Of a stretch of DNA of 64,000 nucleotides, positions 1,591-64,000 are shown piece after piece (position 1 is the first letter of the stretch; every line of letters starts with the position of its first letter). A model generated the notes under the pieces. The model saw only the letters and a program-made list of their open reading frames with translations. It was not told the DNA's origin and ran no database searches. The stretch is taken from the NCBI GenBank assembly GCA_943736015.1, contig OX031072.1, positions 11,001,501 to 11,065,500 on the forward strand, read 5' to 3'. The position numbers and the translations under genes were made by a program. This DNA comes from Tridacna crocea (Eukaryota > Mollusca > Bivalvia > Cardiida > Cardiidae).

Positions 1591-1818
1591 TTATCCCTTT
1601 ACAACACTGTTTCCTTTTCACCCTAGGGAAGAAAGTTGTATGAAAATATTGTAGGAAAAAGGAGAAAATGCTGGTTACCAGCATTTTCTCCTTTTTCCTA
1701 CAATATTTTCTAAACCTTTTATCAGGCAAATTAGAGTATTTGAGGCACATTTCATTCCATTTGCATACGATTTTAATACAGACAACCTTGCTGCACTTTT
1801 GTTGTCTAGTAAAGGAGT
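1591..1818 (+). mobile_element. Family A MITE with near-perfect hairpin
   Basis: The hairpin at 1641-1711 pairs GAAAATATTGTAGGAAAAAG with its complement and has the centre GCTGGTTACCAGC. The outer ends (ATCCCTTTAC and GTAAAGGA) are decayed. Confidence 0.7.
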
Positions 1819-1854
1819 ATACTTGACTGGATCAGTACTAGAGATTTAATGGTA

Positions 1855-2262: not shown

Positions 2263-2285
2263 TGCAGATACGTTCTGATAAGACG

Positions 2286-2519
2286 TTAACCGTTTACTCC
2301 ATAGATAGGCTACTCATTTCTGCGCACTGCTTATAGGAGACTTTGGAAAACATTGTGGCAAAAGGTGAAATTGCTCGTGACGAGCAATTTCACCTTTTGC
2401 CACAATGTTTTCTACACTATCAAAAGGTGACATATACACATAAGAAACAGCTTCATTCTTGCTGTTATTTAGGGTCAATTAGAGATACCATAGAAATGCC
2501 TTATGGGGTAAAGGGTTAA
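2286..2519 (+). mobile_element. Family A variant A3 (GTGACGAGC-type core), full length
   Basis: TTAA lies at both ends. The hairpin core reads GCAAAAGGTGAAATTGCTCG then its complement. The left arm has CTCCATAGATAGGCTACTC and the right arm has CATATACACATAAG. Sister copies start at 18423, 46772 and 53222. Confidence 0.85.
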
Positions 2520-2625: not shown

Positions 2626-2854
2626 TTAACCCATTACCACACAATCCCTACTTTTGACGCCCCTGAGAAAGAAGCCTTTTGAAAACACTGTGGGAAAAGG
2701 AGAAAATGCTGGTAACCAGCATTTTCTCCATTTCCCACAGTGTTTTCTACCCTTCCCAGAACAAATTTCAATTTTTTAGTCACCTATATTTTGCCATCTG
2801 CAAATGCTTTCAATTTGAACCAGTCCAAAATTTTGTCGTGTGGTAAAGAGTTAA
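2626..2854 (+). mobile_element. Family A MITE, full length
   Basis: Left end TTAACCCATTACCACACAAT, right end GTGTGGTAAAGAGTTAA. The stem is GGGAAAAGGAGAAAATGCTG around GGTAACC. This is a good reference copy. TTAA plus CCC ends suggest piggyBac-type mobilisation. Confidence 0.88.
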
Positions 2855-3769: not shown

Positions 3770-3998
3770 TTAACCCTTTCCCAAACTAGCCCTGATTTTT
3801 ACGTGTCTGCAGTAAAAGTCTTTTGAAAACACTGTGGGAAAAGGAGAAATTGCTCGTAACGAGCAATTTCTCCTTTTCCCACAATGTTTTCTACCCTATC
3901 ATATAGGAAAATCATCTTTTTAGCAACTGTTAATTTGTCATCTGCAAAATGCTTTCAATTTGGTCTGGTCCAAAGTTTGCCATTTGGGAAAGGGTTAA
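3770..3998 (+). mobile_element. Family A variant A2 (CTCGTAACGAG core), full length
   Basis: TTAACCC and GGGTTAA ends are present. The stem is GGGAAAAGGAGAAATTGCTC with its complement. The left arm word GTGTCTGCAGTAAAAGTC is shared with the copies at 31027 and 39556. Confidence 0.85.
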
Positions 3999-4150: not shown

Positions 4151-4464
4151 GATAAGGTTCGGGTTGAAGTTTCGAACAGCATTACGAAGATCGTCTTAGG
4201 ACTGCCCCATTCCTAACAAATTGACCGATGGAAATTTGTTGGTCTGATACCTCTATTACGTAATGATTTACATAAGTCAATTGTCTGGAGACCTTTATGA
4301 CTAAAGCGACCTTTATAGAATCACTTCCTTGTTACACGTAATTGAAGGCAAGTAACACCGAACACGATCTAAAGACTGTTTGCCAACCATTCTGTATATC
4401 ATACTGAGTAACATGTAGTGGCACTCTGAGACGTACGTCTCCATAGGGAATCATACCAAGCAAG

Positions 4465-4975
4465 CTAGTTAAAAAAATTTTGGATAAGGGGTAAATGCTG
4501 GTTAGCAGAATTTCCTTTCCATGTTTTCTATCCTTTCATAACGCAAATTCCATCGTTTGAGCCACATTTTATTCCATCTGCAAATGTTTCCAGTATTGAC
4601 AAGTCTGCACTTTTGTCATCTCGTACAGGAATATACTTTATTGAATCCTGTACAACACGAACATTTTTAAGACCTGTCCAAATTGAAATCATTTGTAGAA
4701 AACAATTTCAATGTGACATTATAATGCGATTTTTGTTTAATAGGATAGAAAACATTGTGGGGGAAAAAAAGGAGAAAAAGCTGGTTACCAGCACTTTCTC
4801 CTGTTCCCTTAATGTTTTCAAAGGGCTTCTTCTTCAGGTTTAATGGGATAGAAAACCATGGTTTTTGGGAAAGGAGAAAAAGCTGGTTACCAGCATTTTC
4901 TCCTTTTCCCAAAATGTTTTCAGAAGGCTTCTTCTTCAGGGTCGTTAAATGTCGGCATTGCGTGGTAAAGGTTTA
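4465..4975. mobile_element. Decayed family A copy next to a double-hairpin copy
   Basis: At 4465-4630 lies a decayed copy. At 4665-4975 a reverse copy carries two successive hairpins (about 4749-4820 and 4850-4921), each with GCTGGTTACCAGC. This is an internal duplication of the stem. Confidence 0.7.
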
Positions 4976-5084
4976 ATCAGGACTGGGACTTTTTATGGTA
5001 TCTATGCTAATAAAGTAACTTTTTCCGCAGGCTACCAGCGAAAACGACGGCCTTGGCGGTTGTGATTTATGCCGTCTAGTATTC

Positions 5085-6822: not shown

Positions 6823-7020
6823 GGGTCCGTATTCACCAACCATTTTAAAGAACATTCTTAGTCTTATTCTTCAGAATTTCGTTAGTGTGAAAGTAACAGA
6901 ACTTTTGATTGGCTAAACCATTCGGTTTAGCCAATCAGAAGTTCTGTTACTTTCACAGTTAGAAAATCTTAAAGAGTAAGACAAAGAATGTTCTTAAAAT
7001 GGTTGGTGAATATGGACCCT
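6823..7020. mobile_element. Family J palindromic MITE, full length
   Basis: About 98 bp on each side pair almost perfectly, from GGGTCCGTATTCACCAACC to TGGCTAAACC, with a loop of only a few bases. Single-arm relatives lie at 10233-10335 and 24324-24457. Confidence 0.85.
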
Positions 7021-12271: not shown

Positions 12272-12477
12272 CGAGGACTGGTCCAAATTGAAAGCATTTG
12301 CAGACGACAAAATAAATGGGACTGTAGAATCGAAATTTGATTTTGGAAGAGTAGAAAACATTGTGAGAAAAGGAGAAAATGCTGGTTACCAGTATTTTCT
12401 CCTTTTCCCACAATGTTTTTTCTATATGCTTCTTTCTCAGGGTCGTCAAAAGTAGGGATTGTTTGGTAACTGATTAA
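12272..12477 (-). mobile_element. Family A MITE
   Basis: It contains GTCCAAATTGAAAGCATTTG and the hairpin GAGAAAATGCTGGTTACCAG with its partner, and ends TTTGGTAACTGATTAA. The other TTAA is lost. Confidence 0.8.
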
Positions 12478-16002: not shown

Positions 16003-16247
16003 CTCTCAGTGAAAAGGGGATTTAATGCATTTACAAAAAGTATCGACGCAGTCAGCGCAGGCTGACCTGGACAGAAACGTTTTGCTATCGGTAAATTTTC
16101 TGTATTTCTGAGGACAAGTGTTCTTCGTGGTTAAGTAGGTTCTTTCACAAAACGGACAGCAATATTTGGGGTTTTACTATCGAAATTGAGCATTTTACCA
16201 TCGAATTGAACATTTTACTTTAGTAGTTTCGAGGGATAAGGGTAAAG
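16003..16247. mobile_element. Family D fragment joined to a family B right half
   Basis: GTGAAAAGGGGATTTAATGC and AAAAAGTATCGACGCAGTC (D) give way at about 16140 to B-type TATTTGGGGTTTTACTATCG and GATAAGGGTAAAG. The fusion ends just before the GPCR exon's splice donor. Confidence 0.55.
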
Positions 16248-16253
16248 ACTTAC

Positions 16254-17018: not shown

Positions 17019-17264
17019 TTTGCTGACCTTTTAACCTTAATTGTCATGTTTGTTTTATTATTGCCCTCAAAAGTCTGAGTATATCTCAGTGGATGGCAAA
17101 AAGTAGCCTTCAAGATGCACTATAAACTAATGTCGTCGTTGACAAAATAGACTTTTTCGAACTTAAAGCCAAAATTTTGACTGAAAATATGTTTCCATTC
17201 GGAAACCAGGGCAACCAAATTACTCAATTTTGATGTCGTTCTTCACTCGACTCTCGTTAATTAA

Positions 17265-17844: not shown

Positions 17845-18050
17845 TTTAACCCTTTTCCAAACAATTCTCAGTTTACACGACTCTGATAAAGAAGCCTTTT
17901 TTAAAATATTGTGGGAAAAAGAGAAAATGCTGGTAACCAGCATTTTCTCCTTTTCGCACAATTTTTTCAAAACTTCTCTAAACAAGTTACATTTTTTTTT
18001 TCAGTCTTTTTTTTTTTCTGTCTGCAAATGCTTTCAACTTGGACTGACTT
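17845..18050 (+). mobile_element. Family A MITE, right end lost
   Basis: TTAACCCTTTTCCAAACAAT opens it. The hairpin GAGAAAATGCTGGTAACCAG is intact. T-runs disrupt the right arm. Confidence 0.75.
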
Positions 18051-18422: not shown

Positions 18423-18651
18423 TTAACCCTTTACTCCATAGATACTCATTTCTACGCATTGCTTGTAGGAGCCTTTGGAAAACATTGTGGCAAAAGGTGA
18501 AATTGCTCGTGACGAGCAATTTCACCTTTTGCCACAATGTTTTCTATTCTATCAAAAGGTGTCATATACACATAAGAAACAGCTTCATCCTTGCTGTTAT
18601 TTAGGGTCAATTAGAGATACCATAGAAATGCCTTATGGGGTAAATGGTTAA
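18423..18651 (+). mobile_element. Family A variant A3, full length
   Basis: TTAA is on both sides, with CTCCATAGATACTCATTTC, the GACGAGC-type hairpin and CTTATGGGGTAAATGGTTAA. It is nearly the same as 2286-2519. Confidence 0.88.
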
Positions 18652-21090: not shown

Positions 21091-21273
21091 CGTTGTAAAA
21101 TGGGGACGGCTAACATTAGTTATGGTTTAATCGTTGAAAACGGTCGAAAAACATTGTGACGAAACGAAAACATGTTCTCAACGAGGAATTTCTCCTTTCC
21201 TCACATCGTTTTTTAAATTAGTATGTTGTAAGACGGAAGTGTCGTTCTCGGGAAGTTCAGTGTATTTCAACTT

Positions 21274-21442
21274 TAAACCTTTACTACACTTCCCAAAGTT
21301 TAAACAGGCCTTTAGAAAGTATTGTGGGAAAAGAAGAAAATACTGGTAACCAGCATTTTCTTCTTTTCTCAGAATGTTTTCTACTCTGTCAAAGAGCTTC
21401 TACTGATTCGTACCACTTTCAGATTTGTCGTTTGCAGATAAT
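21274..21442 (+). mobile_element. Family A MITE, damaged
   Basis: The hairpin GGGAAAAGAAGAAAATACTG / CCAGCATTTTCTTCTTTTCTC is flanked by CTTTACTACAC and a shortened right arm. An older A2-like hairpin relic lies at 21135-21215. Confidence 0.65.
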
Positions 21443-21679
21443 ATCACCCGGTGAAAAATGAACTGAAAGGTCCTAAACAATTCTTAGACTGCAACTTGAA
21501 ACTTAAAAAAAAAACAATTATAGTAGGACACAATCATAGCCATTCTTCGGCGAAAATTAACATAATTTCAGTTGGAGCTATGTGCAAAAGAAATTGTCAT
21601 TCGAGAAACAACAAAAGAAAATGAAATATTAAAAATAGGTTCTAAATTACCAATTTGATATCAAAATCTGGATATGACA

Positions 21680-24089: not shown

Positions 24090-24302
24090 TTAACCCTTTA
24101 CCACGCAATCCCTACTTTTGACGACCCTGAGAAAGAAGCCTTTAGAAAACATTTTGAGAAAAGGAGAAAATGCTGCTAACCAGCAATTTCTCACAACATT
24201 TACTACTCTTTACAAAACAAATGCAAATTTTCAGTCTTTGTCATTTTGTCGTCTTGCTTTCGATTTGGGCAAATCTAAAATTTTGTCGTTTGGTAATGAG
24301 AA
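24090..24302 (+). mobile_element. Family A MITE, second stem arm shortened
   Basis: The left end TTAACCCTTTACCACGCAAT is intact. GAGAAAATGCTGCTAACCAG is followed by a shortened complement. The right end TTTGGTAATGAG has lost its TTAA. Confidence 0.8.
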
Positions 24303-25542: not shown

Positions 25543-25768
25543 CTTAACCTTTTACTATAATATACTAAGCTGCAACAATCTTTAGGGAAGAACCTTTCAA
25601 AAAACTTGTGGGAAAAGGAGAAAATGATGTTTATCAGCATTTTCTCCATTTCCTAAAATCTTTTCCACCCATTCAAAGAAAATCCAACCATCTGAGCCAC
25701 ATACGAACTGTCATCTGAAAATGCTCTGGGTAATGACAGGTCCAACGCATTCTCGTTTGGCAAAGGCC
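25543..25768 (+). mobile_element. Family A MITE, diverged
   Basis: The hairpin arm GGGAAAAGGAGAAAATGATG pairs imperfectly. The left end TTAACCTTTTACTA and the right end TCGTTTGGCAAAGG are recognisable. Confidence 0.7.
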
Positions 25769-27690: not shown

Positions 27691-27869
27691 TTTATATTAT
27701 ATTCTGTAATTCGTGTGAAATCAAAAGATGCCAAATTATTTTAGATTAAAGTTTTATTTCACTTATTCAGAAGGATAAGGGGTAAAAAGTTCGAAATTTA
27801 TGAGATGAAAAATTTAGATCTCAGTACTTAAAATACCTTTACTGATGGCAAAATAAATGTTTCTCAAAT

Positions 27870-27990
27870 ACAATATCCATCTGTTAAAGTTCAGAAAACA
27901 TTATAGGAAAAAGGAGAAAATTCTGGTTACCAGCATTTTCTCCATTTTTCTATATTGTTTTCAAAGGCCCCTTTGCGCTGGTAGTGGCAA
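27870..27990 (-). mobile_element. Family A MITE, partial
   Basis: The hairpin AGAAAATTCTGGTTACCAG with partner arms GAAAACATTATAGG and CTATATTGTTTTC is present without recognisable ends. Confidence 0.6.
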
Positions 27991-28615: not shown

Positions 28616-28833
28616 TTAACCCTATACCAAACGATCCCTGGTTTTTTACGACAGTGAGATAGAAGCCTTTTGAACACATTGTGGGAAAAGGAGAAAATGC
28701 AGGTAACCATGATGTTTTCCAGCCTGCTGGAAACATATTTCGAATTCACATATTTTAAGTTACGATTATTTTGTCGTCTGCAAGTGCTTTGAATTTGGAT
28801 CAGTCTAAAATTTTGTCGTTTGGTAAAGGTTAA
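28616..28833 (+). mobile_element. Family A MITE with partly deleted hairpin
   Basis: TTAACCCTATACCAAACGAT and TTTGGTAAAGGTTAA are intact ends. After GAGAAAATGCAGGTAACCA the second stem arm is missing. Confidence 0.8.
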
Positions 28834-29150: not shown

Positions 29151-29365
29151 AACTATTGTTATGTCAAAACTTATTGGTGCAGAACAAATCCTATAAAATC
29201 AAAGTAAATAAAACATATTCAACAGCTGATGAGTCATCATTGATGGGAAAATGAGATTTGATACAACCTTGAATGAGACAGTAAAAAATAAATGCTTCTT
29301 TTTTATCGTGTCACCCCTTTCGAAAAAGCCATTCAATATTTGACCTATGAGACACTATTTTAATT

Positions 29366-29587
29366 CTTAACCAAACGACAAACTTTTAGTCTGGTCCAAA
29401 TTTAAAGCATTTGCAGAGGACAAAATGAATGTGACTAAAAAATTGAAATTTATTTTAGAAGGGAAGAAAACATTGTAGGCAAAGGAGAAAATGCTGGTTA
29501 CCAGCATTTTCTCCTTTTCCCACAATGTTTTCAAAAGGCTTCTATCTCAGGGTCGTAAAAACCACGGATTGTTTGGAAAAGGGTTAT
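29366..29587 (-). mobile_element. Family A MITE
   Basis: TTAACCAAACGACAAAC opens it. The hairpin GAGAAAATGCTGGTTACCAG pairs fully. TTTGGAAAAGGGTTAT ends it. Confidence 0.82.
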
Positions 29588-31026: not shown

Positions 31027-31254
31027 TTAACCCTTTCTCAAACGACAAATTTTGGACTCTTCCAAACCGAAAGAGTTTGCAGACGCACAATTTTAGATTT
31101 TGAGAAGATGGCAGAACATTCTCAAAAAGGGTAGAAAACACTGTGGGAAAAGAAGAAATTGCTCGTTACGAGCAATTTCTCCTTTTCCCACAGTGTTTTC
31201 AAAAGACTTTTACTGCAGATACGTAAAAATCAGAGCTTGTTTGGGAAACGGTTG
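31027..31254 (-). mobile_element. Family A variant A2
   Basis: TTAACCCTTTCTCAAACGAC, the stem GAAGAAATTGCTCGTTACGA with its complement, and GATACGTAAAAATCAGAGC. It is near-identical in plan to 39556-39783. Confidence 0.85.
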
Positions 31255-33409: not shown

Positions 33410-33642
33410 TTAACCCTTTTCTCCATAGATACTCATTATGACGTATAAACAAAAGACAGCTTTTGAAAACATTGTGGGAAAAGGAGAAATTGCCCATAAC
33501 GAGCAATTTCTCCTTTTCCCACAATGTTTTCCACTCAATCAGATATTTGTATCATCATTTGTCCATATTTTTGACATCATATCTTTATTTGTTGCTGAAA
33601 TGGAAGAGCCTCAAATTGGCATATGATCAGGTAAAGGGTTAA
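33410..33642 (+). mobile_element. Family A mosaic: A3-type left end, A2-type stem
   Basis: TTAACCCTTTTCTCCATAG and ATACTCATT are A3 left-end words, but the stem GGGAAAAGGAGAAATTGC is A2. The right arm GATATTTGTATCATCATTTG is shared only with 46128-46315. TTAA is at both ends. Confidence 0.85.
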
Positions 33643-33676: not shown

Positions 33677-33907
33677 TATAACCCATTACCACACAATTCC
33701 TACTTGTGACGACCCTGACAAAGAAGCCTATAGAAAACATTGTGGGAAAAGGAGAAAATGCTGGTAACCAGCATTTTCTCCTTTTCCCACAATGTTTTCT
33801 ACCCTTCACAAAATAAATTTCAAATTTTTGGTCACTTTTATTTTGTCATCTGCAAATGCTTTCGATTTGGACAAGCCAAAAAAGTTTGTCGTTTGGTAAT
33901 GAGTTAA
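33677..33907 (+). mobile_element. Family A MITE, full length
   Basis: ATAACCCATTACCACACAAT and TTTGGTAATGAGTTAA are the ends. The perfect stem GGGAAAAGGAGAAAATGCTG is centred on GTAAC. Confidence 0.88.
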
Positions 33908-34955: not shown

Positions 34956-34959
34956 ATTA

Positions 34960-35233
34960 CCAAGTTGAAAGCAATTTAGGATGACAAATAAAAAGTAATC
35001 TCGAATCATGGTACAATTTGTCTCTGAAAGGATAGAAAACATTGTGGGCAATAAAGGAGAAAATGCTGATTACTAGCATTTTCTCCTTTTTCCCACAATC
35101 TTTTCAAACGCAAAAAACATTGAGGGAAAAAGGAGAAAATGCTGGTAACCAGCATTTTCTCCTTTTTCCACAATCTTTTCAAAAGCCCTCTTCCGAAAGG
35201 TTATGAAATCACGTGATTGTTTGGTACAGGGCT
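34960..35233 (-). mobile_element. Family A MITE with two successive hairpins
   Basis: Hairpins at about 35034-35105 and 35115-35182 both contain GGAGAAAATGCTG and its complement, with different centres (GATTACTAGC and GGTAACC). The flanks are family A. Confidence 0.75.
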
Positions 35234-35390
35234 AATGAAGGGTTTCCGTGTCGATGCACGGGTCACAACAATTCTAATCCGTGGATGAGGTATAATCCCA
35301 AAATTAAGGAATTCCGTCTCCATCCGGGGGTTACAAGAATTTTAGTTCCAACTGAATTCGTTGGATGAAGCATAACCCCAAATGTTGCTA
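35232..35390. repeat. Diverged tandem duplication
   Basis: GCACGGGTCACAACAATTCT ... GTGGATGAGGTATAATCCCA recurs as CCGGGGGTTACAAGAATTTT ... TTGGATGAAGCATAACCCCA. Confidence 0.6.
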
Positions 35391-35725: not shown

Positions 35726-35951
35726 ACCGTTTCCGAAACAATCCCTGGTTTTTACGACTCTGAGATAGAAACCTTTTGAAAACATTGTGGGAAAAGGAGA
35801 AAATGCTGGTAACCAGCATTTTCTCCTTTTCTCACAATGTTTTCTGTTCCACTGGAAACAAATTTCAGTATATGAGTTTCGTTTAGTTTGTCGTCTGCAA
35901 GTGCTCTGGATTTGGACCAGTGTAAAATGTTTGTCGTTTGGTAAAGGGTTA
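35726..35951 (+). mobile_element. Family A MITE
   Basis: TTTCCGAAACAATCCCTGG, the perfect stem GGGAAAAGGAGAAAATGCTG, GTCGTCTGCAAGTGC and TTTGGTAAAGGGTTAT. Confidence 0.82.
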
Positions 35952-37457: not shown

Positions 37458-37895
37458 TTAACCCTTGTCCTGATAACTGAGTGAACTCAAACTTTCAAGT
37501 TGATAGTAAAGGCCAATCTCTCCCATTTCAAACGTTTTTATTTTAAGACAAATATATCCGTACTGGACAGAGTAGATACGATATCAGACTGTGATAAGTT
37601 CTGTGCAGTCTTATCTTAACCCACTACCACACAATCCCTACTTTTGACGCCCCTGAGAAAGAAGCCTTTTGAAAACACTGTTGGAAAAGGAGAAAATGCT
37701 GGTAACCAGCATTTTCTCCTTTTCCCACAGTGTTTTCTACCCTTCCCAGAACAAATTTCCATTTTCCAGTCACCTTTATTTTGTTGTCTGCAAATGCTTT
37801 CAATTTGGACTAGTCTAAAATTTTCTCATGTGGTAATGGGTTAACTTACATGTACACTGTCTGCAAAAAGTCTCGTTAAGCAGCCTAGGGCTTAA
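37458..37895 (+). mobile_element. Family B MITE split by a family A insertion
   Basis: The left end TTAACCCTTGTCCTGATAAC and GTGCAGTCTTATCTTAA are continued after the insert by CTTACATGTACACTGTCTGC and GCAGCCTAGGGCTTAA. The gap is exactly family A 37616-37844. Confidence 0.82.
37616..37844 (+). mobile_element. Family A MITE, full length, nested in family B
   Basis: TTAACCCACTACCACACAAT and TGTGGTAATGGGTTAA are the ends, and the stem is intact. Removing it with one TTAA restores the B palindrome. Confidence 0.9.
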
Positions 37896-38163
37896 GCTTC
37901 GTTTAGCAGCTTAAGATTAAGAGTTAAGATTTTCCTTGAAACTCTAGAGATTTTAGAACCCTGAAAAAAGAGTTGAAACAAATTTGGGAAAAGAGATATG
38001 CGGGTAACCAGCATGTCAGCATTTTCCCCACAAGGCTCTAACCCTTACAAGTCAATTTACTCTGTAAAAGCAAAAATCAAGTTGTTGTTTGCAAATGTTC
38101 TCAATTTTGAAGAATAAGAAATGATGTTATCTGTAAATGATGTAATCCCCAAGACTACTCTAT

Positions 38164-38392
38164 TTAACCCTTCACCACACAATGACGACTTTTAACGCCC
38201 ATGATAGAGAAAGCTTTTGAAAACATTGTGGGAAAAGGAGAAAATGCTGGTTACCAGCATTTTCTCCTTTTCCCACAATGTTTTCTACCCTATCAAAGAA
38301 AAAACAATTGATATGTTTGGCATTCAAACTGTCATCAGCAAATGCTTTCAATTCAGACTGGTATAAAATTTTGCTGTGTGGTAAAGAGTTAA
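38164..38392 (+). mobile_element. Family A MITE, full length
   Basis: TTAACCCTTCACCACACAAT and TGTGGTAAAGAGTTAA are the ends. The perfect stem is centred on GGTTACC. Confidence 0.88.
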
Positions 38393-39555: not shown

Positions 39556-39783
39556 TTAACCCTTTCCCAAACGACAAATTTTAGACTCTTCCAAACTCAA
39601 AGAGTTTGCTGATGGCAATTTCAAATTTGATAAAAATGGCTGAAAGTTCTCCAAATAGGTAGAAAACACTGTGGGAAAAGAAGAAATTGCTCGTTACGAG
39701 CAATTTCTCCTTTTCCCACAGTGTTTTCAAAAGAGTAGTACTGCAGACACGTAAAAACAAGGGCTTGTTTTGGAAAGGGATAA
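39556..39783 (-). mobile_element. Family A variant A2, full length
   Basis: TTAACCCTTTCCCAAACGAC opens it. The stem GAAGAAATTGCTCGTTACGA pairs. GACACGTAAAAACAAGGGC and GGAAAGGGATAA end it. Confidence 0.86.
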
Positions 39784-40226: not shown

Positions 40227-40455
40227 TTAACCCATTACCACACAAGAAAAATTTAGATTGGTCCAAATTGAAAGCATTTGCAGACGACAAAATAAAGGTG
40301 ACTGAAAAATTGAAATTTGTTCTGGAAAGATTAGAAAACACTGTGGGAAATGGAGAAAATGCTGGTTACCAGCATTTTCTCCTTTTCCCACAGTGTTTTC
40401 AAAAGGCTTCTTTCTCAGAGGCGTCAAAAGTAGGGATTGTGTGGTAATGGGTTAA
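40227..40455 (-). mobile_element. Family A MITE, full length
   Basis: TTAACCCATTACCACACAAG and TGTGGTAATGGGTTAA are the ends, with a complete stem. It abuts the family F element. Confidence 0.9.
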
Positions 40456-45605: not shown

Positions 45606-45682
45606 TAACCTTCGATAGTAGAATCATGGCATTTTCAAAGATAAAAGATGTAGTACCTCTTGTAAAGCGTCAAAAGAAAATT

Positions 45683-45902
45683 GACCCTTTACCACACAGT
45701 TCCGAGTTTATAAGCGACCCAAAGGAGTAAAGCTCTTGAAAGATTGTTGGAAAAGGATAAAATGCTGGTAACCAGCATTTTCTCCTTCTCCTACAATATT
45801 TTCTTCACTTTCAATAATAAATCTAATTATTTGAGAGCCACATTCAATGATTAAAGCTTTTAACTTGAACAAATCTAAAATTTTGTGGTTCAGTAAAGAG
45901 TT
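45683..45902 (+). mobile_element. Family A MITE
   Basis: ACCCTTTACCACACAGTTCC, the stem GGATAAAATGCTGGTAACCA with a partner, and GTGGTTCAGTAAAGAG. The TTAA ends have mutated. Confidence 0.78.
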
Positions 45903-46601: not shown

Positions 46602-47022
46602 ATGGCATTCGGACAGTTTCCTAAAGTGTCGTCTCGGATCAGCCTGCGCAGGTTAATCCGAGACGGCACTTTACGACTAGATTTTGTCCAATATTAGACG
46701 CGTAAAGCAGAAAATGACATGAAAACGGAAAGTGTCGTTTCGAACGTGCGCAGGCTGATCCGAGTCACACGTTAAACCTTTACTCCATAGATACTCATTT
46801 CTATGCATTGCTTGTAGGATCCTTTGGAAAACATTGTGGCAAAAGGTGAAAATGCTCGTCACGAGCAATTTCACCTTTTGCCACAATGTTTTCTATGCTA
46901 TCAAAAGGTATCATATACACATAAGAAATGGCTTCATCCTTGCTATTATTTATTGTCAATTAGAGATACCATATGGGGTTAAGGGTTAAGCAAGTTTCGA
47001 ATTGCCCTTTATTGCGTGTTTT
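46602..47022. mobile_element. Family C MITE split by an A3 insertion
   Basis: GGCATTCGGACAGTTTCC and the first palindrome lead to GTGCGCAGGCTGATCCGAG. After the A3 element the C end resumes as GCAAGTTTCGAATTGCCC. Confidence 0.72.
46772..46989 (+). mobile_element. Family A variant A3, nested in family C
   Basis: TTAAACCTTTACTCCATAG and GGGGTTAAGGGTTAA are the ends. The hairpin GTGAAAATGCTCGTCACGAG pairs with its partner. Confidence 0.86.
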
Positions 47023-47397: not shown

Positions 47398-47627
47398 TTA
47401 ACCCGTTACCAGGCGGTAAAATTTTAGAACTATCCAAATTGAAAGCATTTGCAGATGACAATTTCAAAGTGGCTCAAATGATGCAATTTTGCTTTGATAG
47501 GGTAGAAAATTTTGTGGGAAAATGAGAAAATGCTGGTTACCAACATTTTCTCCTTTTTCCACCATGTTTTCGAATGGCTTCTTCTTCAGAAGTCGTTAAA
47601 AATAGTCATTTTGTGGTAAAAGTTTAA
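47398..47627 (-). mobile_element. Family A MITE, full length
   Basis: TTAACCCGTTACCAGGCGG and TGTGGTAAAAGTTTAA are the ends. The stem ATGAGAAAATGCTGGTTACC has minor mismatches. Confidence 0.85.
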
Positions 47628-48407: not shown

Positions 48408-48635
48408 TTAACCCCTTACCGCACAATGCCACCTTTTGACGCCCAGGGAAAGAAGCCTTTTGAAAACATTGTGGAAAAAGGAGAAAATGCTGGTAACCAG
48501 CATTTTCTCCTTTTCCCACCATGTTTTCTGTCCTATCAAAGAAAAGTTGCACCATATGAGCCACATTGAAATATATGTCTGCAAATGCTTTCAGTTTGGA
48601 CAAGGCTGAAATTTTGTCGTCTGGTAAAGGGTTAA
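48408..48635 (+). mobile_element. Family A MITE, full length
   Basis: TTAACCCCTTACCGCACAAT and TCTGGTAAAGGGTTAA are the ends, with an intact stem around GGTAACC. Confidence 0.88.
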
Positions 48636-48905: not shown

Positions 48906-49029
48906 CCCTTCACTGAACTTCCATATTTTTATGTAAAGTACACTACATGAACGTAAGCAAATTAACTTTCAGTCGCGTTTAAATGTATTCTCCTACAGCT
49001 TTGCGAGAGAAGGCAGCAATATATCCCGA

Positions 49030-49238
49030 TTCATACGACCCAGAGGTAGATCTATAATCCTTTTGAAAGCATTGTAGGAAAAGGAGAAAATGCTGCTAAA
49101 CAGCATTTTCTCCTTTTCCCACAATCTTCCCTACCCTGTCAAATACAGAATCCACCATTTTAGCTACGTTTGAAATGTTGTTTACGAATGCTGTCAATTT
49201 GAACAAGTGTCTATTTCTGATTTGTGGTAAAGATTTAA
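49030..49238 (+). mobile_element. Family A MITE, left end decayed
   Basis: ACGACCCAGAGGTAGATC, the stem GGAAAAGGAGAAAATGCTGC with its complement, and TTGTGGTAAAGATTTAA. Confidence 0.75.
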
Positions 49239-52496: not shown

Positions 52497-52725
52497 TTAA
52501 CACATTACCACACAGCAGATTTTTAGACCTATCCAAATTGAAAGCATTTGCGGACGACAATTTCAGAGTGGCTGAAATTGTGCAATTTTGCTTTGATAGG
52601 GTAGAAAACTTTGTGGGAAAAGGAGAAAATGCTGGTTACCAGCATTTTCTTCTTTTCCCACGATGTTTTTTAAAGGCTTCTTTCTCAGGGGTGTTAAAAA
52701 CCGTCATTGTGTGGTAAAGAGTTAA
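52497..52725 (-). mobile_element. Family A MITE, full length
   Basis: TTAACACATTACCACACAGC and TGTGGTAAAGAGTTAA are the ends, with an intact stem around GGTTACC. Confidence 0.88.
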
Positions 52726-52997: not shown

Positions 52998-53225
52998 TTA
53001 ACCCATTACCACACAATCCCTACTTTTGACGACCCGGAGAAAGAAGCCTTTAGAAAACATTGTGGGAAAAGGAGAAAATGCTGGTAACCAACATTTTCTC
53101 CTTTTCCCACAATGTTTTCTACCTTTCACAAAACAAATTCAAATTTTCAATCACTTTTATTTTGTTGTCTGCAAATGCTTTTGATTTTGATAAGTCTAAA
53201 ATATTGTTGTTTGGTAATGGGTTAA
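52998..53225 (+). mobile_element. Family A MITE, full length
   Basis: TTAACCCATTACCACACAAT opens it. The stem is near-perfect. TTTGGTAATGGGTTAA closes it on a TTAA shared with the next element. Confidence 0.9.
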
Positions 53226-53445
53226 CCCTTTACTCCATAGATACTCATTTCTACGCCTCGCTTGTAGGAACTTTTGAAAAAAAAACATTGAGGCAAAAGG
53301 TGAAAAGGTGAACTTTCACCGTTTGTCACAATGGTTTCTATGCTATCAAAAGGTGTCATATACACATAAGAAATGGCTTCATCCTTACTTTTATTTAGGG
53401 TCAAGTAGATATGCAATAGAAATGCCTTATGGGGTAAAGGGTTAA
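53222..53445 (+). mobile_element. Family A variant A3, hairpin shortened
   Basis: TTAACCCTTTACTCCATAG and CTTATGGGGTAAAGGGTTAA are the ends. AGGTGAAAAGGTGAACTTTC shows that the stem centre has been rebuilt or deleted. Confidence 0.85.
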
Positions 53446-53490: not shown

Positions 53491-53717
53491 TTAACCCATT
53501 ATCAAACGACAATTTTTTAGACTGGTCCAAATTGAAAGCATTTGCAGACGACAAAATAGAAGTGACTGAAGATTTGAAATTTTTTGTGAAGGGTAGAAAA
53601 CATTGTGTGAAAAGGAGAAAATGCTGGTTACCAGCATTTTCTCCTTTTCCCACAATGTTTTCTAAAGGCTTCTTTCTCAGGGGCTTCAAAAGTAGGGATT
53701 GTGTGGTAATGGGTTAA
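53491..53717 (-). mobile_element. Family A MITE, full length
   Basis: TTAACCCATTATCAAACGAC and TGTGGTAATGGGTTAA are the ends, with an intact stem around GGTTACC. Confidence 0.9.
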
Positions 53718-55695: not shown

Positions 55696-56031
55696 TTATA
55701 AATTTTCTTCGGCTGGAGAATAAAGAAACATCCCAGAAAAGGTCGCAAGTTTCAAAGTTTTCTTGCCCTTAGGATGGCCTCCTTTCGTCACTTTTACACA
55801 GGCTCTGTCGCCGGCCAGTAGCTTCAGTAAAAATGTGCTGCGTTTCTGAGTGGTCATCAGATGTTGTGTTTTCATATTCGCAATATTTTGGCTATTGACG
55901 AATAATTCCAAGGATGGGCTATTGTTTTGATCGTCGTGACCACTGGAAGTTGTCAGCAAATATATTCCTGTGTATTTACATGTATAATATCCTGTTGAGA
56001 GGTTGTATGATTCGCCAGTATTTGAGAGGAC
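55696..56031 (-). CDS. C1q-domain gene, last exon
   Basis: The minus-strand acceptor cttcctcag ends at 56032. The exon begins with GTC (Val), encodes 111 residues and stops at 55696-55698. It contains NTGESYNLSTGYYTC, GIYLLTTSSG, AGDRACVKV and TFSGMFLYSP, the conserved strands of the C-terminal two thirds of a C1q domain. Confidence 0.85.
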   Translation of the reverse strand, partial: VLSNTGESYNLSTGYYTCKYTGIYLLTTSSGHDDQNNSPSLELFVNSQNIANMKTQHLMTTQKRSTFLLKLLAGDRACVKVTKGGHPKGKKTLKLATFSGMFLYSPAEENL

Positions 56032-57474: not shown

Positions 57475-57594
57475 CAAATTTAGACTTCTCTACGTGGAAA
57501 ATATTTGCAGACGACAAATCAAATGTGGCTCAAAATATGGCCAGAAACATTGTGGAAATAGGGGAAATATTGGTCACCAGCAGTTTCTCTAAAC
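57475..57594 (-). mobile_element. Family A remnant
   Basis: ATTTGCAGACGACAAATC, GTGGCTCAAAATATGG and CATTGTGGAAATAGGGG are in family order. It abuts the next A copy. Confidence 0.55.
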
Positions 57595-57821
57595 CCCGGT
57601 TTACGAAACAATCCCTGGTGTTTACGACCCTAACATAGGAGCTTTTTGAAAACATTGTGGTGAAAGGAGAAAATGCTGGTAACCAGCATTTTCTCCTTTT
57701 CCCACAATGTGTTCTACCCTGCTGGAAACAAATTTTAATTTTTTAGTTAGATTTATTCTGTCGTCTGCAAGTGCTTTCAATTTGCGCCAGTCTAAAGTTT
57801 TGTTGTTTGGGAAAGAGTTAA
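57595..57821 (+). mobile_element. Family A MITE
   Basis: TTTACGAAACAATCCCTGG, the perfect stem GAAAGGAGAAAATGCTGGT, and TTTGGGAAAGAGTTAA. It lies between the C1q and PPIH genes. Confidence 0.82.
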
Positions 57822-58416: not shown

Positions 58417-61400
58417 GTATGTAGTTTTTCATCAAATTATGATTTATAACAGACTTTGTAGACGCATAAAATGGCTTAGGATGTATTGTAACCTAATTCG
58501 GATAAAACTAGTAATCGGACGGACATTCATACATCCAGCCACATCTGAATAGTTGTCTACAAATGAATTCAGTTTTGGCAATTCAAGTACTTGTTGTTTA
58601 GGGTTCCTACACGCCGTCATTATAGATCATTAATATTCCAAAACGATGGCCTTGTTTTATGATTGGAAATGAACATGTTCCAATTTATTAACCGGCAATA
58701 ACCGATGATAAATGTTCAAATTTATGTGAGTAAATATTTAATTATTTTACTTTGACTTTTACACAATTGCTAGTCTTTAATTCATTCACTCTTAGTTACT
58801 GCTCCAGAGAAACCTTTTCATTTAACAAATCTTTTTCGATGTATTTCAGGAAATTGGAAGAATAAAGTTTGAACTCTTTGCTGATACAGTACCAAAAACA
58901 TCTGAAAACTTCAGGTTTGAATTAGTCTAAAATTATTAACCCAGGGTTCGAAATTCCCACATATTTACTTGTAAAATGCAAGCCAGAATTGGAAAATGCA
59001 AGTTGAAATTTCAAGCACTAACTAAAAAATGTGAGTGCAAATTATTGAAGAACAGTTACCGTATGAACTAAATTCCATATGTGAATACAAAAAAAGGGTA
59101 ATTCTTTTCATTCTGAATAAACATCGGTCATGTTGCACTGAGAATACCCTTCGATGGCTGTTGATAATTTTGACATGTCGCCATTGAAACCTCCAGAGTT
59201 ATTGTTTGTTATCCGAGTTTGGTGAGGCAAGTGCTTTCGTCTGCACTCACAGCTGATACTGAGGTTTTGCATTTTTGATACGGAAAAATGGTAGGCGAAT
59301 TCAATCTCTGAGCATAAAGCAAAAATATATATCAATCTGTCATGAAAAGTTAATTATTATGCACAGATAGCAATGGGAAGCAAGTTGGCAGACCGTGGTG
59401 GACTCGTTAAACCAGTTATCGGACACGCAGATATTCAGATGTGATACGTCCGTATTTCATGTACAAATTCCTCCACCATTGTAAGTTTTGTAGAAATTTA
59501 ACTTGGTTTTAGTACAGAAATTCAACTGGAATTCAAATGATTGTTAAATTAGGGTTTTAATATCAATCAGCATTCCTTTTTTGTTCGGTTGTTGTCTCAG
59601 TTTACAGTTTACATAATAGAACAGAATTGAACAGTTTGTACCTACCATTCTTTCTTTGCAATTGATACTAGGCAAGCTGAGCTTTAAAAAATGTGAGTTC
59701 AATATTAATTTTGCAAGTGGAAATAAAAGCTACTTGCTAAAATTTGCAAGTGGATAAAAAAAATGAAATTCGAACCCTGTAACCATTCTGGTTAAATCGA
59801 TACACTGTCCAGTATTTTGTCCTCTTTTCTCTTTTCTCTTTGTACTTCAGATTTTTCATCTACTCACTCTGCAACAATGTCTGTATTGTATACAATCGGT
59901 ATTTACTCTTATTGTATTTGTGCGTCAACAGTGACGCGCTGTTGAAAGAAAATGTAGGTAATTTTCACAAAAATCATGTGTTGAGGACAACCCAAAATAG
60001 ACTAGTATTTTGCATTTATACATTTCCTAAATATCAGCTCTTGAAGCAGTACAACCAGATTAATCATTACCTATGTGGACAATGTCAATCAAGATTAAAT
60101 TGCATTGTTGATCTAAGTTGTTCGCTTCTTTGCCCTATGTTTTGATTATAATAGCTGTGGAATTGCAATATATCCGTATCTGTAGTATGGACTAAAACTA
60201 TCTATTAACCCATTACCACACGAGAAAAATTTAGACTGGTCCAAATTGAAAGCGTTTACAGACAACAAAATGAAAGTGACTGAAAAATGGAAATTTGCTC
60301 TGGGAAGGGTAGAAAACACTGTGGGAAAAGGAGAAAATGCTGGTTACCAGCATTTTCTCCTTTTCCCACAGGGTTTTCAAAAGGCTTCTTTCTCAGGGGC
60401 GTCAAAAGTAGGGATTGAGCGGTAATGGGTTAAATGATGACATGGATAGTTTTGTCTATTTCTTTAGCAAGGGTTGACTATAGATACCAAATGACAAATT
60501 CTAGATTCTTTCAAGCTTAAAGCATCTGCAGACAACAGTTTTGAAAGTGACATTGATGGACCAAAGTTCTTTGACAGGTTGTGGGAAAGGAGAAAATGCA
60601 GTTTACTAGCATTCTCTCCTTTTCCTACCATATTAACAAAAGCCTTCTGTTTTCGAGTTATTAATACCCAGTATTGTTTGTGAAGGGCTTAACTCTTTAC
60701 CAAATGACAATATTTTAGACAGTTCCAAATTTAGAGCATGTGCAGACGACAAAATAAACGTAACTCAAAAATTGAAATTTGTGTCCGGCAGGGTAGAAAA
60801 GGAGAAAATGCTGGTCTCCAGCACAATGTTTTCAGAAGGCTGCTGTTTAAGGTTCGTAAAAAACAGGGATTGTTTGGGTAAGGGTTAAAAGCAACTAGAA
60901 CTGAACATGCACATATAGTTCTATGGGTTGTCCCTTGGCAACAAAAATATGGGGTTCATTTTGAGTCCCTAGTCAGAAATAATGGGTGTCATTTTGGAAT
61001 TTGTGGGGGTCACATCAAAATGTCATTAGCTTGGACAAAAGCTACTATTAAATTTTGTGAAACTGTGTCTTTTTTGTGTTTCGTATTCACGGTAAATCTT
61101 TGTATACCCTACATATGTATTACTACATGGTGATAGATACATAATTATACCAGAGACTCTCTATATAGAGGGAGCTTACAGCCTAGATGGCACCTTTTTC
61201 ATAAACAGTATGGAGTATGCTTTCTTTTTGCCTGTTTTTAACATGCAAATATACCCTAGCTTCAGACATGCTGTCATATTTCTAAGTAGTTGTAATCTTT
61301 GAAGGGTATCATAATGAACGCTAGTGTTTGATGATGCACAAGGGGTTGGATTTCGAATTTTGTGCAGCCTCTGTCTGATGAAAAAGGTTGTTTTGTTTTG

Positions 61401-64000
61401 TTTTTATCTCCTGAATCGATTATTCAATTGATGAAAATAGCTTGTTGTGGGCCAGATTGAAAAGCCTGTAATGTTTTGCTTTATAGAGAATATCCATTTC
61501 GGGGAAAAATAAACTATTTGCATGAATTAAACTGCCAGTTCCTGTATTTCAACACACAGGCCCCATTCATGCTGCTGTTTTCAATGAATAACGAAGTGTA
61601 TCTCTTTAGCTATATTGTAATTTACAGTTAATCCTCAAATGTGTTGAAATGTGTTTCTTTGTGCTCTTACCAGGACTGGTGTTGTGTAATCTTTGTTGAT
61701 GGGCTAATCTTCCTTGCAGACAGCAAGCATGACGTCTTGACAGAGCCGTATTGTTTTCATTAGAGATTCACTGTTTTAGTTTTGACCCCTTAAAAACGAA
61801 TGAATGCTAGTAAAATTGATACACAGTCCATTGTTTCATCCTATTTTCTCTTTGTACTCCAGATTTTTTATCTATTTGCAATGTAACAGTGTTGGTAGTT
61901 TATACAATCTTTAGTAACTCTTATCATATTTGTCAGTCCACAATGACGCATTGCTGAAAAGATTGCGGGTCATTTTCCTTAAAATGTCTCAAAACGCACA
62001 AAATTGTGAGTCAAGGAAAACCCTAGGTTTTGATATCCTGTTTAGTCTATCATAATCCATTAAGCCAGACATTGTTTTACCAACCAACTTTAAGCTTTTA
62101 TGAATACCTAGGCCTATAGAACAATGTGCATAGAATTTGTTCATAGAATTGGTTCAGAGGGTTCATAGAATTTTTCTATATTAAATTTCAGACAGTTTTG
62201 TACCGGAGAATACAGAAAAGATGGCGTACCTCAGGGATACAAGAATTGCTCATTCCATCGTGTTATTAAAGAGTTCATGGTACAAGGAGGTGATTTTGTC
62301 AGTGTAAGTACTTTTTTCGTGTTTCTAATCATACCAGTGCCAATAGAGGAGAACAGGGGCTTCTGTTGATGGCATAGACCAAGACAAGATTGCACAAAAT
62401 AGACAGAAAGGAAGTAGGAAAGAATCAATTTGGGCTGTACTCAGGATAAATAAGGTTTAACTCATTACCAAACAACAAAATTTTAGGTTTGTCCAAATTA
62501 AAAGCATTTATAGACGACAAAATAGAAGTGACTGAAAATTTGAAATTTGTTTTGTGAAGGGTAGAAAACAGTGTGCGAAAAGGAGAAAATGCTAGTTAAA
62601 CAGGGTTTTAACTCATCACTAAATGACAAAAATTTTAGGTTTGTCTAAATCAAAAGCATTTGCAGAAAAAAAAAATAGAAGTGACTGAAAATTTGAAATT
62701 TGTTTTGTGAAGGGTAGAAAACATTGTGGGAAAAGGAGAAAATGCTGGTTACCAGCATTTTCTCCTTTTCCCACAAAGTTTTCTAAAGGCTTCTTTCTTA
62801 GGGTCATCAAAAGTAGGAATTGTGTGGTAATGGGTTAGAACATCTCTTTAATACACTATACCAAGGAAATTGTTACACAATTATGAATCTATAAAAACCT
62901 TGTAGTCTTTGATTCCTTTGCCTTGCAGAAAATTAACAAGTAGCAAAAAGTTTTGTCCCATTTGGGAACTTCACAGGCTTACAAGAATACATCCTTGTTA
63001 CCGATGCATAAAGCCCCTTGTCAGACTGCTTGTCTCTATTCATTTTACCTTATGGGATAAAGAATTTGTTTTCAGACTCACAAGATTTTTCTGAATGTTC
63101 TCAAATACAATGAAATATGTGGGAAATGACTGTGGTGGGTGCCTGTTACTGTGCTTTTTTTTTGATAGCAAAATGTTGGAGATTTTGGAATAAAAAGTTG
63201 GTGATTGTCTCGATCATGTTGCCTAAGTAAAACACTAAAGGTTGCCAATGGTAGGATTGTAAAAAGTCTTATCATATAGCTATGACTTTTTAAACTCAAG
63301 TACAGTGCATTCACCTTACGCAGATATCTGGAAAAGCGTGTCTGTAAAGTGTCAGATTTGGTTCCCAACATGGTATGAGGATGTGTCCAGGGCATTGAAT
63401 ACATACATGTACATGTTAGTTTTCAGTTGAATTGGTTTAATTTTTGTGCTCTAATATTTATCCAGCATTCATTGAAAAATAAACTTAACTCTTTTCTAAA
63501 TGACAAAATTTTAGACATGTCCAAATTTAAAGCATTTTGCAGACGACAAAATAAAAGTGACTGAAAATTCGAAATTTCTTTTGGGAAGGGAAGAAAATGT
63601 TGTGGGAAATGGAGAAAATGCTGGTCACAAGCATTTTTTCCTTTTTCCACAATCTTTTCAGAAGGCTTCTTTCTCAGGGTCCTTAAATGTCAGGATTGTG
63701 TGGTAAAAGGGTTAATCCTTCATTTTTATAATAAATGACAAGTGATCTCTTCCCCGTGGCTACATATTCAGAGGACAAATAGGGGAAGTAACCCTAATTA
63801 AGTGCCAAGATTTAAGATTAATTACATCCCTTGTTTGTGGTGAACATGGTAATATCATCATATATTTTACAAACGTGCAATCTGAATTGTATGTTGTTGT
63901 TTTATCAGGGTGATGGCACAGGGCTTAACAGTATTTATGGAGGATCTTTTGCCGATGAAAATTTCAAGTTGAAGCACACGGGGCCTGGTATATTATCTAT
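58348..64000 (+). CDS. PPIH: PPIH-type cyclophilin (peptidyl-prolyl cis-trans isomerase H), 5' part, four exons
   Basis: Exons 58348-58416, 58850-58914, 62192-62303 and 63909 to the window edge join in frame to about 112 residues. Cyclophilins catalyse cis-trans isomerisation of prolyl peptide bonds. PPIH is the family member that binds the PRPF3/PRPF4 part of the U4/U6.U5 tri-snRNP in the nucleus, so a role in pre-mRNA splicing is expected from family knowledge. Seen here: the N-terminal NPVVFFD strand, [14 protein letters not shown], and the active-site block [15 protein letters not shown], which keeps the catalytic Arg, Phe, Met and Gln. GDGTG and [14 protein letters not shown] follow. The longer loop [10 protein letters not shown] is typical of PPIH and separates it from cyclophilin A. 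The C-terminal third, with the Trp/His part of the pocket, lies beyond the window. Introns are about 433, 3277 and 1605 bp and all follow GT-AG. Intron 2 is loaded with transposons. Another cyclophilin paralogue is possible but less likely. Confidence 0.93.
58850..58914 (+). CDS. PPIH: PPIH exon 2
   Basis: The acceptor is tatttcag at 58842-58849. The exon encodes [20 protein letters not shown] plus F and the first two bases of an Arg codon, then donor GT at 58915 (phase 2). The junction after exon 1 falls where human PPIH reads GGQ/EVGR. Confidence 0.92.
58942..59779. mobile_element. 838-bp TIR element in PPIH intron 2, 5-bp duplication
   Basis: CAGGGTTCGAAATT at the left and its complement (one mismatch) at the right, with TAACC on both sides (58937-58941 and 59780-59784). 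Subterminal ACTTGTAAAATGCAAG and CTTGCTAAAATTTGCAAG resemble each other. CAGGGTTCGAA ends recall hAT elements, but hAT duplications are normally 8 bp. No transposase is seen. Confidence 0.8.
59790..59990 (+). repeat. Intronic duplication, copy 1
   Basis: GATACACTGTCCAGTATTTT, CTTTGTACTTCAGATTTTTC and AGTGACGCGCTGTTGAAAG match 61810-62010 in order, diverged. Confidence 0.7.
60205..60433 (-). mobile_element. Family A MITE, full length, in PPIH intron 2
   Basis: TTAACCCATTACCACACGAG and GCGGTAATGGGTTAA are the ends, with an intact stem around GGTTACC. Confidence 0.9.
60469..60692 (-). mobile_element. Family A MITE, diverged
   Basis: ACCAAATGACAAATTCTAG, the stem GGAAAGGAGAAAATGCAGTT with a partner, and GTGAAGGGCTTAA. 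Its TTAA end is shared with the next copy. Confidence 0.7.
60689..60888 (-). mobile_element. Family A MITE, stem mostly deleted
   Basis: TTAACTCTTTACCAAATGAC and TTTGGGTAAGGGTTAA are the ends. GAGAAAATGCTGGTCTCCAG is all that is left of the hairpin. Confidence 0.8.
60889..61805. other. PPIH intron 2, no further feature
   Basis: Unique-looking AT-rich intron with no repeat family or RNA gene that I can support. Confidence 0.5.
61810..62010 (+). repeat. Intronic duplication, copy 2
   Basis: GATACACAGTCCATTGTTTC, CTTTGTACTCCAGATTTTTT and AATGACGCATTGCTGAAAAG correspond to 59790-59990. Confidence 0.7.
62192..62303 (+). CDS. PPIH: PPIH exon 3 (active-site exon)
   Basis: The acceptor is aaatttcag, ending at 62191. 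The first base completes the split Arg codon. Then come [17 protein letters not shown] and [17 protein letters not shown], with donor gtaagt at 62304 (phase 0). It carries the catalytic Arg and the PPIH-type loop. Confidence 0.95.
62457..62605 (-). mobile_element. Family A partial copy
   Basis: TTTAACTCATTACCAAACAAC through GAGAAAATGCTAGTTAAACA. It stops at the stem centre, where the next copy starts. Confidence 0.75.
62606..62837 (-). mobile_element. Family A MITE
   Basis: TTTTAACTCATCACTAAATG, a complete stem GGGAAAAGGAGAAAATGCTG, and TGTGGTAATGGGTTAG. Its first half closely repeats the partial copy before it. Confidence 0.85.
63485..63715 (-). mobile_element. Family A MITE, full length, in PPIH intron 3
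   Basis: TTAACTCTTTTCTAAATGAC and TGTGGTAAAAGGGTTAA are the ends. The stem GGGAAATGGAGAAAATGCTG has a few mismatches. Confidence 0.85.
63909..64000 (+). CDS. PPIH: PPIH exon 4, cut by window end
   Basis: The acceptor is ttttatcag, ending at 63908. The exon reads [20 protein letters not shown], then [10 protein letters not shown], and runs off the window in frame. The family expects SMANSGP-like sequence next. Confidence 0.93.

Follow-up and report, generated by a model that had tools for sequence, protein, structure and literature searches.

Introduction

A TTAA target and CCC..GGG ends are typical of the miniature inverted-repeat transposable elements (MITEs) of the piggyBac superfamily, and cut-and-paste movement is general behaviour in that superfamily. 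In piggyBac itself both ends contain 19-bp palindromes, to which two C-terminal domains of the dimer bind; in piggyBat internal sites are repeated, and the third of them limits activity (PMC11707139, partial text). For rice Stowaway MITEs, work cited in the same partial text found that a longer terminal sequence restricts excision and that a shortened element can jump better. In bivalves, MITEs take up a considerable part of the genome (PMC10294476, partial text). Here we describe a hairpin repeat from a 64,000-nt stretch of Tridacna crocea DNA (G000:C17:11001501-11065500 in a 1.05-Gb assembly; hereafter the window). It is most likely a non-autonomous piggyBac-superfamily transposon, a 229-bp MITE with a 67-bp palindrome inside it. 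The reading we prefer, at a probability of about 0.57, is that this MITE is moved by the transposase of a resident piggyBac, F8, or of a relative, and that its palindrome is kept by selection on jumping copies as a cis requirement or enhancer.

Structure and copies of the hairpin element

We scanned the window for quasi-palindromes, requiring pairing at 25 or more of 32 arm bases. Forty-three places passed, and three base shuffles gave none. The stem letters of the hairpin MITE were present in 34 of the 43 (one of these sits between two adjacent element copies); the remaining nine were judged by eye to be other palindromes. An iterated nucleotide profile gave 133 matches, with both strands counted and E up to 0.05. 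With a locus defined by a profile E of ≤1e-3 and a mutual overlap of <35%, there were 70 loci, covering 12,460 bp or 19.5% of the window. The scan and the search both confirm the hairpin repeat that the original prediction, made from the letters of the window, had described; its estimate of about 50 copies falls between the clear copies and the 70 loci, which include worn ones. Near-full copies (≤25 gaps) account for 32 of the 70 loci. The arms of 27 of these have ≤3 gaps, and the other five were excluded from the comparison of arms and flanks given below. The end motifs TTAACCC and GGGTTAA occur 28 and 23 times in the window, respectively.

The element is 229 bp long, with TTAACCC ends, and consists of a 55-bp left part, a 33-bp arm, a single base, a second 33-bp arm and a 107-bp right part. 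The palindrome is near-perfect over its 67 bp, and in canonical orientation its centre base is A in 90 of 113 copies. This is the off-centre stem, almost without a loop and between unlike flanks (55 versus 107 bp), that had been predicted. The short and uniform length of 229 bp, the inverted terminal repeats and the high copy number are those of a MITE. The parts of a reference copy are as follows.

37616..37844, + strand: reference near-full copy, close to the young subfamily (profile; RNA fold z -9.2)
37616..37631, +: left terminal part, TTAA target site and CCC.. (sequence, profile alignment)
37671..37703, +: left palindrome arm, 33 bp (arm alignment)
37704, +: lone unpaired centre base (A, canonical orientation)
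37705..37737, +: right palindrome arm, 33 bp (arm alignment)
37829..37844, +: right terminal part, ..GGGTTAA

Copies also enter PPIH, as had been claimed: those at 62457-62598, 62608-62837 and 63485-63715 lie in one of its introns. PPIH is the best match of the stretch 62181-62294 (E 1.9e-17), and a next exon can be read by eye at about 63900-63990.

Insertion at TTAA and superfamily membership

In an empty-site test, the flanks of 67 copies were joined over one TTAA and matched to the rest of the genome. For the copy at L016:3976-4204, uninterrupted empty sites were found over all 164 query letters at L026:4804-4966 (95.7%) and again at L021:8980-8818 (95.1%). This one copy inserted at TTAA, and its empty site has a single TTAA. 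The other joined junctions gave partial or weaker matches, many of which resemble copy-into-copy insertions. Separately, three element copies stand head to tail at L023:5234-5891, neighbours sharing one TTAA.

The terminal inverted repeats have the form 5'-CCC..GGG-3', and an element coding for a DDE_Tnp_1_7 transposase has matching ends, closely so on the left and over the first 15 bases on the right (see below). The TTAA target, the CCC..GGG ends, the empty site and the resident piggyBac with matching ends support a piggyBac origin of the hairpin MITE, the source that the original prediction had favoured. The Kolobok superfamily, which also has a TTAA target, was rejected: it requires RR..YY termini (PMC9587614, partial text), and the element has CC..GG.

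Abundance and age across the genome

We searched 20 further stretches of 10 kb, their round coordinates set by hand on 16 other contigs (C1-C16), with the profile. They hold 187 element loci, 84 of them near-full, that cover 32,654 of 200,000 bp (16.3%), with 1 to 27 loci per stretch. No profile matches arose in controls, for which these stretches were reversed or rebuilt as first-order Markov sequence. The window does not stand out: elsewhere the genome is almost as rich in the element. If the stretches are representative, the genome contains ~0.98 million loci (0.66-1.30 million), and the element makes up 11-22% of it. A number near a million is comparable with that of human Alu. For a single miniature DNA transposon such abundance is unusual, and it is one of two unusual traits of this element.

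With one window copy (40227..40455) as the query, we collected a young set of the 39 best full-length genome matches besides the query (40 of 1880 candidates scored; not a random sample). Identity over the full element is 96-97% for all 39 (for one of them, from element base 2 on), and thus part of the family is young. The exact 26-base tip of one subfamily occurs 2,205 times in the genome, and its reversed control does not occur.

Conservation of the stem on spreading lineages and in resident copies

Among the 27 window copies, the mean pairwise difference was 0.113 and 0.115 in the two arms and 0.377 and 0.406 in the two flanks, with 0.215 at each end; the stem is better conserved than its flanks, as the first look had suggested. 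For a wider comparison we grouped 113 copies by their flanks, with 10 of 123 near-full copies (more than six stem gaps) excluded both here and from the tree. An identical stem consensus is common to three clusters, of 41, 4 and 10 copies, whose flank consensuses are 12-24% different. Across the cluster consensuses five of the 33 stem pairs vary, whereas flank consensuses differ by up to 0.61. Variability climbs sharply at the stem edges; gap openings, at 0.0047 per stem site and 0.0054 per flank site, are equally common.

From the parts outside the stem we built a tree of 152 copies, leaving CpG columns out of the change counts. Internal branches had 0.69 changes per stem column and 3.82 per flank column, and terminal branches 6.24 and 10.25. 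As counts of internal and terminal changes, this is 43/387 for the stem versus 443/1189 for the flanks (Fisher p 2e-15). Because the flanks had built this tree, it was repeated with one flank at a time: the internal/terminal ratio was 0.319 and 0.310 for the unused flank and 0.122 and 0.126 for the stem (p about 1e-8 and 1e-9). The ratio is 0.06-0.11 in five of six stem segments, lower than in the terminal repeats (0.21 and 0.27), which the outer left arm resembles at 0.22.

In the young set, private changes were found at 14 of 2573 stem sites (0.0054) and at 30 of 4835 non-CpG flank sites (0.0062; p 0.75), and shared changes in 2 stem cells (0.0008) versus 60 flank cells (0.0124). Tested per column, the distinct shared variants give p 0.021. 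The private rates in the cluster of 41 copies were 0.0144 for the stem and 0.0176 for the flank. Stem constraint that is strong on internal branches and weak on terminal branches suggests that selection acts mainly on copies that jump and little on copies at rest, and thus that it is linked to mobilisation, one of the roles that the original prediction had proposed.

The two arms also change together over long times. The five pair positions that vary between cluster consensuses (3, 8, 13, 20 and 26 from the centre) are all altered in both arms, and four of these five symmetric fixed changes are swaps such as G-C to C-G, bypassing wobble pairs. Arm mismatch in the 27 window copies was 0.062 within a copy versus 0.114 between arms of different copies; within-copy mismatch was 0.102 in the 113 copies, the between-copy control being confined to the 27. 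On terminal branches there were 18 paired double changes versus 15 unpaired. In the young copies, all 16 arm substitutions are one-sided (in addition, one copy has a gap and one an altered centre), so one arm is not quickly repaired from the other. The arm mismatches comprise 71 G.T versus 132 A.C. The centre base went to its complement in 12 of 18 inferred tree changes (A>T/T>A 9, G>C/C>G 3, other 6), a bias that could reflect occasional inversion of the palindrome.

Stem-to-tip spacing is kept, at exactly 55 bp on the left in 43 and exactly 107 bp on the right in 35 of 54 measurable copies; here the TTAA nearest 55/107 bp was taken, and 69 of 123 copies without a clear palindrome or a TTAA at both ends were excluded. 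The most distant subfamily flanks match at 53 of 130 places (shuffled, 35), yet the spacing holds. Letters like those of the terminal inverted repeat may also lie within the right arm (CCTTTTCCCACAATG versus CCTTTACCACACAATG), with p 0.001 in one of five subfamilies and 0.04-0.81 in the others (left arm, p 0.17-0.87); we treat this as a lead only.

A candidate autonomous partner

In this genome the transposase family PF13843 matches at 118 places (of 196 candidates, 116 were scored); 25 of the matches have no internal stop and have open frames of 474-668 residues. We inspected the surroundings of 23 of the 118 loci and obtained complete ends for four piggyBac families (F3, F9b, F12 and F8); no other family among these 23 loci yielded both ends. 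F3, F9b and F12 have clear end pairs, TTAACCC and then other letters, and were rejected as partners, their tips matching the element at just 16-22 of 42 positions. Pieces of piggyBac transposase, many with stops, are clustered at C8:56.71-56.76 Mb and C13:4.48-4.61 Mb (G000).

F8 seems to be a recently active piggyBac. Several of its copies are nearly identical (100% and 99.9% over the compared flanks), and the one on C5 is ~7.2 kb long from its coordinates. The identity between two F8 copies ends after GTGGTAATGAG (reverse complement with TTAA, TTAACTCATTACCAC), a sequence present in all five copies and followed by TTAA in four. The opposite end, TTAACCCATTACCGTTCAATAACGCCTTTTGACGCCCC (TTAACCCATTACC..CAAT......TTTTGACGCCCCT), is exact in four of five copies, each with unlike flanking DNA. 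The left end of the element agrees with the left end of F8 at 32 of 42 positions without a gap, CAAT at 17-20 and TTTTGACGCCCCT from position 27 being common to both. The five cluster consensuses agree with the F8 left end at 23-31 of 42 positions. By comparison, eight other piggyBac tips, F8's right tip among them, match the element left end at 14-22 of 42 (one over 37 letters). F8 has four slightly varied copies of the block CGCCTTTTGACGCCCC, at 23, 58, 93 and 128, exactly 35 bp apart; the element has the first of these four TTTTGACGCC-type repeats only, and its stem starts at 56. The C-terminal piece of F8 has, by eye, a cysteine-histidine pattern. The genome search for a transposase with the same ends, proposed with the original prediction, has led to F8, and F8 or a close relative is likely to supply transposase to the element.

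F3 (G000:C7:38462639-38463721 and surroundings, L077, L078) carries a palindrome, CGTCCCCTTTTGGGGACG, of 18 bp at one tip and 20 bp at the other. It lies near one tip and ~130 bp from the other, a layout resembling that of piggyBac in PMC11707139 (partial text). As F3 has palindromes near both tips, a binding site is one idea for the stem of the MITE.

Weighing the explanations for the palindrome

Several observations weigh against the reading in which F8 moves the MITE and selection on jumping copies keeps its palindrome. The right end of the element matches F8 well over the first 15 bases only, with 19 of 42 positions against the F8 right tip and 24 of 42 against the F8 left tip. Over the stretches of F8 that were read, ~130 bp at the left end and 80 bp at the right, no such palindrome was seen, so the F8 transposase perhaps works without one. 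The cysteine-rich region of F8 matches zf-Tnp_2 weakly, below the cut-off (E 0.053). With 23 of 118 loci inspected and ends for four families, a closer partner than F8 may exist. When the shared changes of the young set are counted as distinct variants, there is 1 in the stem and 14 in the flank (p 0.085 versus private). Private stem changes are rarer than flank changes in the clusters of 10, 9, 6 and 4 copies (0.045, 0.013, 0.022 and 0.016 per site in the stem; 0.064, 0.047, 0.053 and 0.045 in the flanks), and the stem/flank ratio is 0.63-0.73 on short terminal branches and 0.61 over all terminal branches. Constraint or conversion may therefore act on resident copies too. As the samples are thin, the private deficit in the small clusters can also reflect unsampled changes of the source.

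The stem might instead be kept for its DNA shape, with a hairpin or cruciform extruded at replication that promotes excision or gap repair and so raises copy number. The symmetric fixed changes, four of five without a wobble intermediate, and the 12 moves of the centre base to its complement versus six others would fit this. However, the letters are conserved as well, only five of 33 pairs differing where flank consensuses differ by up to 0.61, and pure pairing would permit more symmetric drift, though double changes are slow. We consider this explanation unlikely. A transcript that folds into a hairpin and yields small RNAs useful to host or element is much less probable again: the copy at 37616-37844 does fold as RNA at -83.5 kcal/mol (z -9.2 versus shuffles), but a host function would constrain resident copies, of which the young set gives no sign, the 71 G.T versus 132 A.C mismatches show no G-U excess in the sense reading, and the window has no Rfam matches at gathering scores.

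Two repair processes could keep the stem uniform. Ectopic gene conversion among very many copies, which the original prediction had raised as a cause, would account for the same stem consensus in three clusters with flanks 12-24% apart and for the lower private stem rate in four small clusters. Conversion would erase private changes too, and yet the young copies keep one-sided arm changes (16 of 16) and have private changes about equally in stem and flank, the cluster of 41 has nearly equal private rates, and variability rises sharply at the stem edges; we hold it to be improbable. Template switching, in which arm-to-arm repair alone keeps the stem perfect without selection, is a described mechanism (PMC8794818, partial text), and a diverged copy whose arms are perfect and doubly changed (1591-1815) and the 18 paired versus 15 unpaired double changes on terminal branches are in its favour. 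Unbiased repair would leave the substitution rate as it is, whereas the stem rate on internal branches is about one-fifth of that of the flank, and the 16 arm substitutions of the young set include no symmetric one; we rate this slightly lower than conversion. The contrast between internal and terminal branches is one that neither template switching alone nor gene conversion alone readily explains.

A model for mobilisation

In the model that we prefer, the element would move by cut-and-paste at TTAA with the transposase of F8 or a close relative. Its left 42 bp correspond position by position to the F8 left end, including the first TTTTGACGCC-type repeat, and the 67-bp palindrome occupies the place of the other three F8 repeats, with its distance to both tips kept. 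The most probable mechanism would have transposase bound to both arms, possibly through paired zinc-binding domains at the C terminus, like those of piggyBac and piggyBat, and the bound arms would help to bring the two element ends together (synapsis). We infer this binding and its part in synapsis by analogy with the end palindromes and repeats of piggyBac and piggyBat (PMC11707139, partial text). Copies with a damaged palindrome would be mobilised less, such that spreading lineages keep intact palindromes and resident copies decay more freely.

A more specific version, which we would put somewhat short of even odds, is that the palindrome, absent from the ends of the parent, arose within the miniature transposon as a cis enhancer, in the place of three of the four subterminal repeats of the parent (which are perhaps repressive, like the third site of piggyBat), and that selection among selfish copies, not for the host, keeps the arms matched and drove the element to about a million copies. 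An enhancer role for the palindrome would help to explain how a 229-bp passenger came to fill about one-sixth of a 1-Gb animal genome, and the palindrome would then be a cis element of interest for piggyBac-type systems. Sequence alone goes far here toward telling selection on copies that jump from selection on those at rest, and the 67-bp palindrome and the F8 transposase make a testable pair.

Other copies and features in the window

The further copies are listed by position.

1591..1815, +: near-full diverged copy; arms still perfectly complementary, with changes in both
2286..2519, +: near-full copy of the TAGATACTC subfamily; stem perfect, G at the centre
2626..2854, +: near-full copy, close to the young subfamily (profile)
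3770..3998, +: near-full copy, GCTCGT stem variant altered in both arms
4462..4976, no strand assigned: three clustered partial copies, 4462-4629, 4645-4839 and 4839-4976 (profile)
12276..12477, -: partial copy, good stem (palindrome scan, profile)
17846..18047, +: partial copy, good stem (palindrome scan, profile)
18423..18651, +: near-full copy of the TAGATACTC subfamily; stem perfect, G at the centre
21273..21445, +: partial copy with stem (palindrome scan, profile)
24090..24300, +: near-full copy, damaged stem (profile)
25544..25766, +: near-full diverged copy (profile)
27809..27981, -: partial copy with stem (palindrome scan, profile)
28616..28831, +: near-full copy, damaged stem (profile)
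29360..29586, -: near-full copy (profile)
31027..31253, -: near-full copy, GCTCGT stem variant (profile)
33410..33642, +: near-full copy, mixed subfamily features (profile)
33679..33907, +: near-full copy, perfect stem
34959..35235, -: two adjoining partial copies, 34959-35110 and 35112-35235 (palindrome scan, profile)
35726..35951, +: near-full copy (profile)
37931..38139, +: near-full diverged copy (profile)
38164..38392, +: near-full copy, perfect stem, flipped centre base (T for A)
39556..39783, -: near-full copy, GCTCGT stem variant (profile)
40227..40455, -: near-full copy, young subfamily; query for the genome search (profile)
45682..45902, +: near-full copy (profile)
46772..46989, +: near-full copy, TAGATACTC subfamily, centre C (flipped)
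47398..47627, -: near-full copy (profile)
48408..48635, +: near-full copy (profile)
49025..49238, +: near-full copy (profile)
52497..52725, -: near-full copy (profile)
52998..53225, +: near-full copy; right TTAA common to the next copy, 53222..53445 (profile)
53222..53445, +: near-full copy, TAGATACTC subfamily, stem centre deleted (profile)
53491..53717, -: near-full copy (profile)
57593..57821, +: near-full copy (profile)
60205..60433, -: near-full copy, close to the young subfamily (profile)
60485..60692, -: near-full diverged copy (profile)
62457..62598, -: partial copy within PPIH intron (profile)
62608..62837, -: near-full copy within PPIH intron
63485..63715, -: near-full copy within PPIH intron

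Less perfect palindromic repeats are centred at 41541, 46648, 22672, 23157 and 11538, with another at L069:325-351, at least some of them of one type (TAAAGTGTCGTCTCGGATCAGCCTGCGCAG); by eye, that at about 41485-41600 interrupts a hairpin-MITE copy. Palindromes outside the family lie at 6844-6999 (76-nt arms), 28385, 48094 and 50246. Tandem arrays are present at 38807-39262 (period 37 bp), 27185-27677 (period 34 (68) bp) and 56244-56602 (period 23 bp). The open frame 16215-17030 (-) matches a rhodopsin-type receptor (7tm_1), and 55696-56145 (-) matches a C1q domain; together with PPIH, they mark the DNA as animal.

Comparison with known systems

Literature on bivalve and mollusc piggyBac MITEs, on million-copy MITE families and on internal palindromes was general, and the element is absent from the titles and the abstracts shown. 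One of four strings of stem and end letters occurs in a zebrafish paper (partial text), and the stem core had no matches in viral or in prokaryote collections. The bivalve MITEs of PMC10294476 are, in its partial text, not classified further, and no such palindromic element is described there.

The Stowaway MITEs of rice belong to another superfamily, unlike our element, and are not known to have a central palindrome. The T2-MITE/Kolobok elements of Xenopus are similar in their TTAA target, long life and many subfamilies (PMC6004289, partial text), but differ in the RR..YY ends of Kolobok (PMC9587614, partial text) versus CC..GG in the MITE. The ends of piggyBac (Trichoplusia) and piggyBat (Myotis) are closer: they too have asymmetric tip distances, and they hold palindromic transposase-binding sites (PMC11707139, partial text). 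However, these palindromes are ~14-19 bp and lie within an end, whereas the 67-bp palindrome of the MITE lies between the ends. In piggyBat a motif occurs three times, 44 bp apart (PMC11707139, partial text); that of F8 occurs four times, 35 bp apart, and the MITE keeps the first only. Like mPok of Daphnia (partial text) and other piggyBac MITEs, the element is a short non-coding relative of a piggyBac element. It is unlike piggyBac MITEs in general in its estimated number of about a million copies, 11-22% of one genome, and in a long central palindrome that is conserved on source lineages. The superfamily is a known one; the second unusual trait, beside abundance, looks to be this long internal palindrome, apparently kept by selection among jumping copies.

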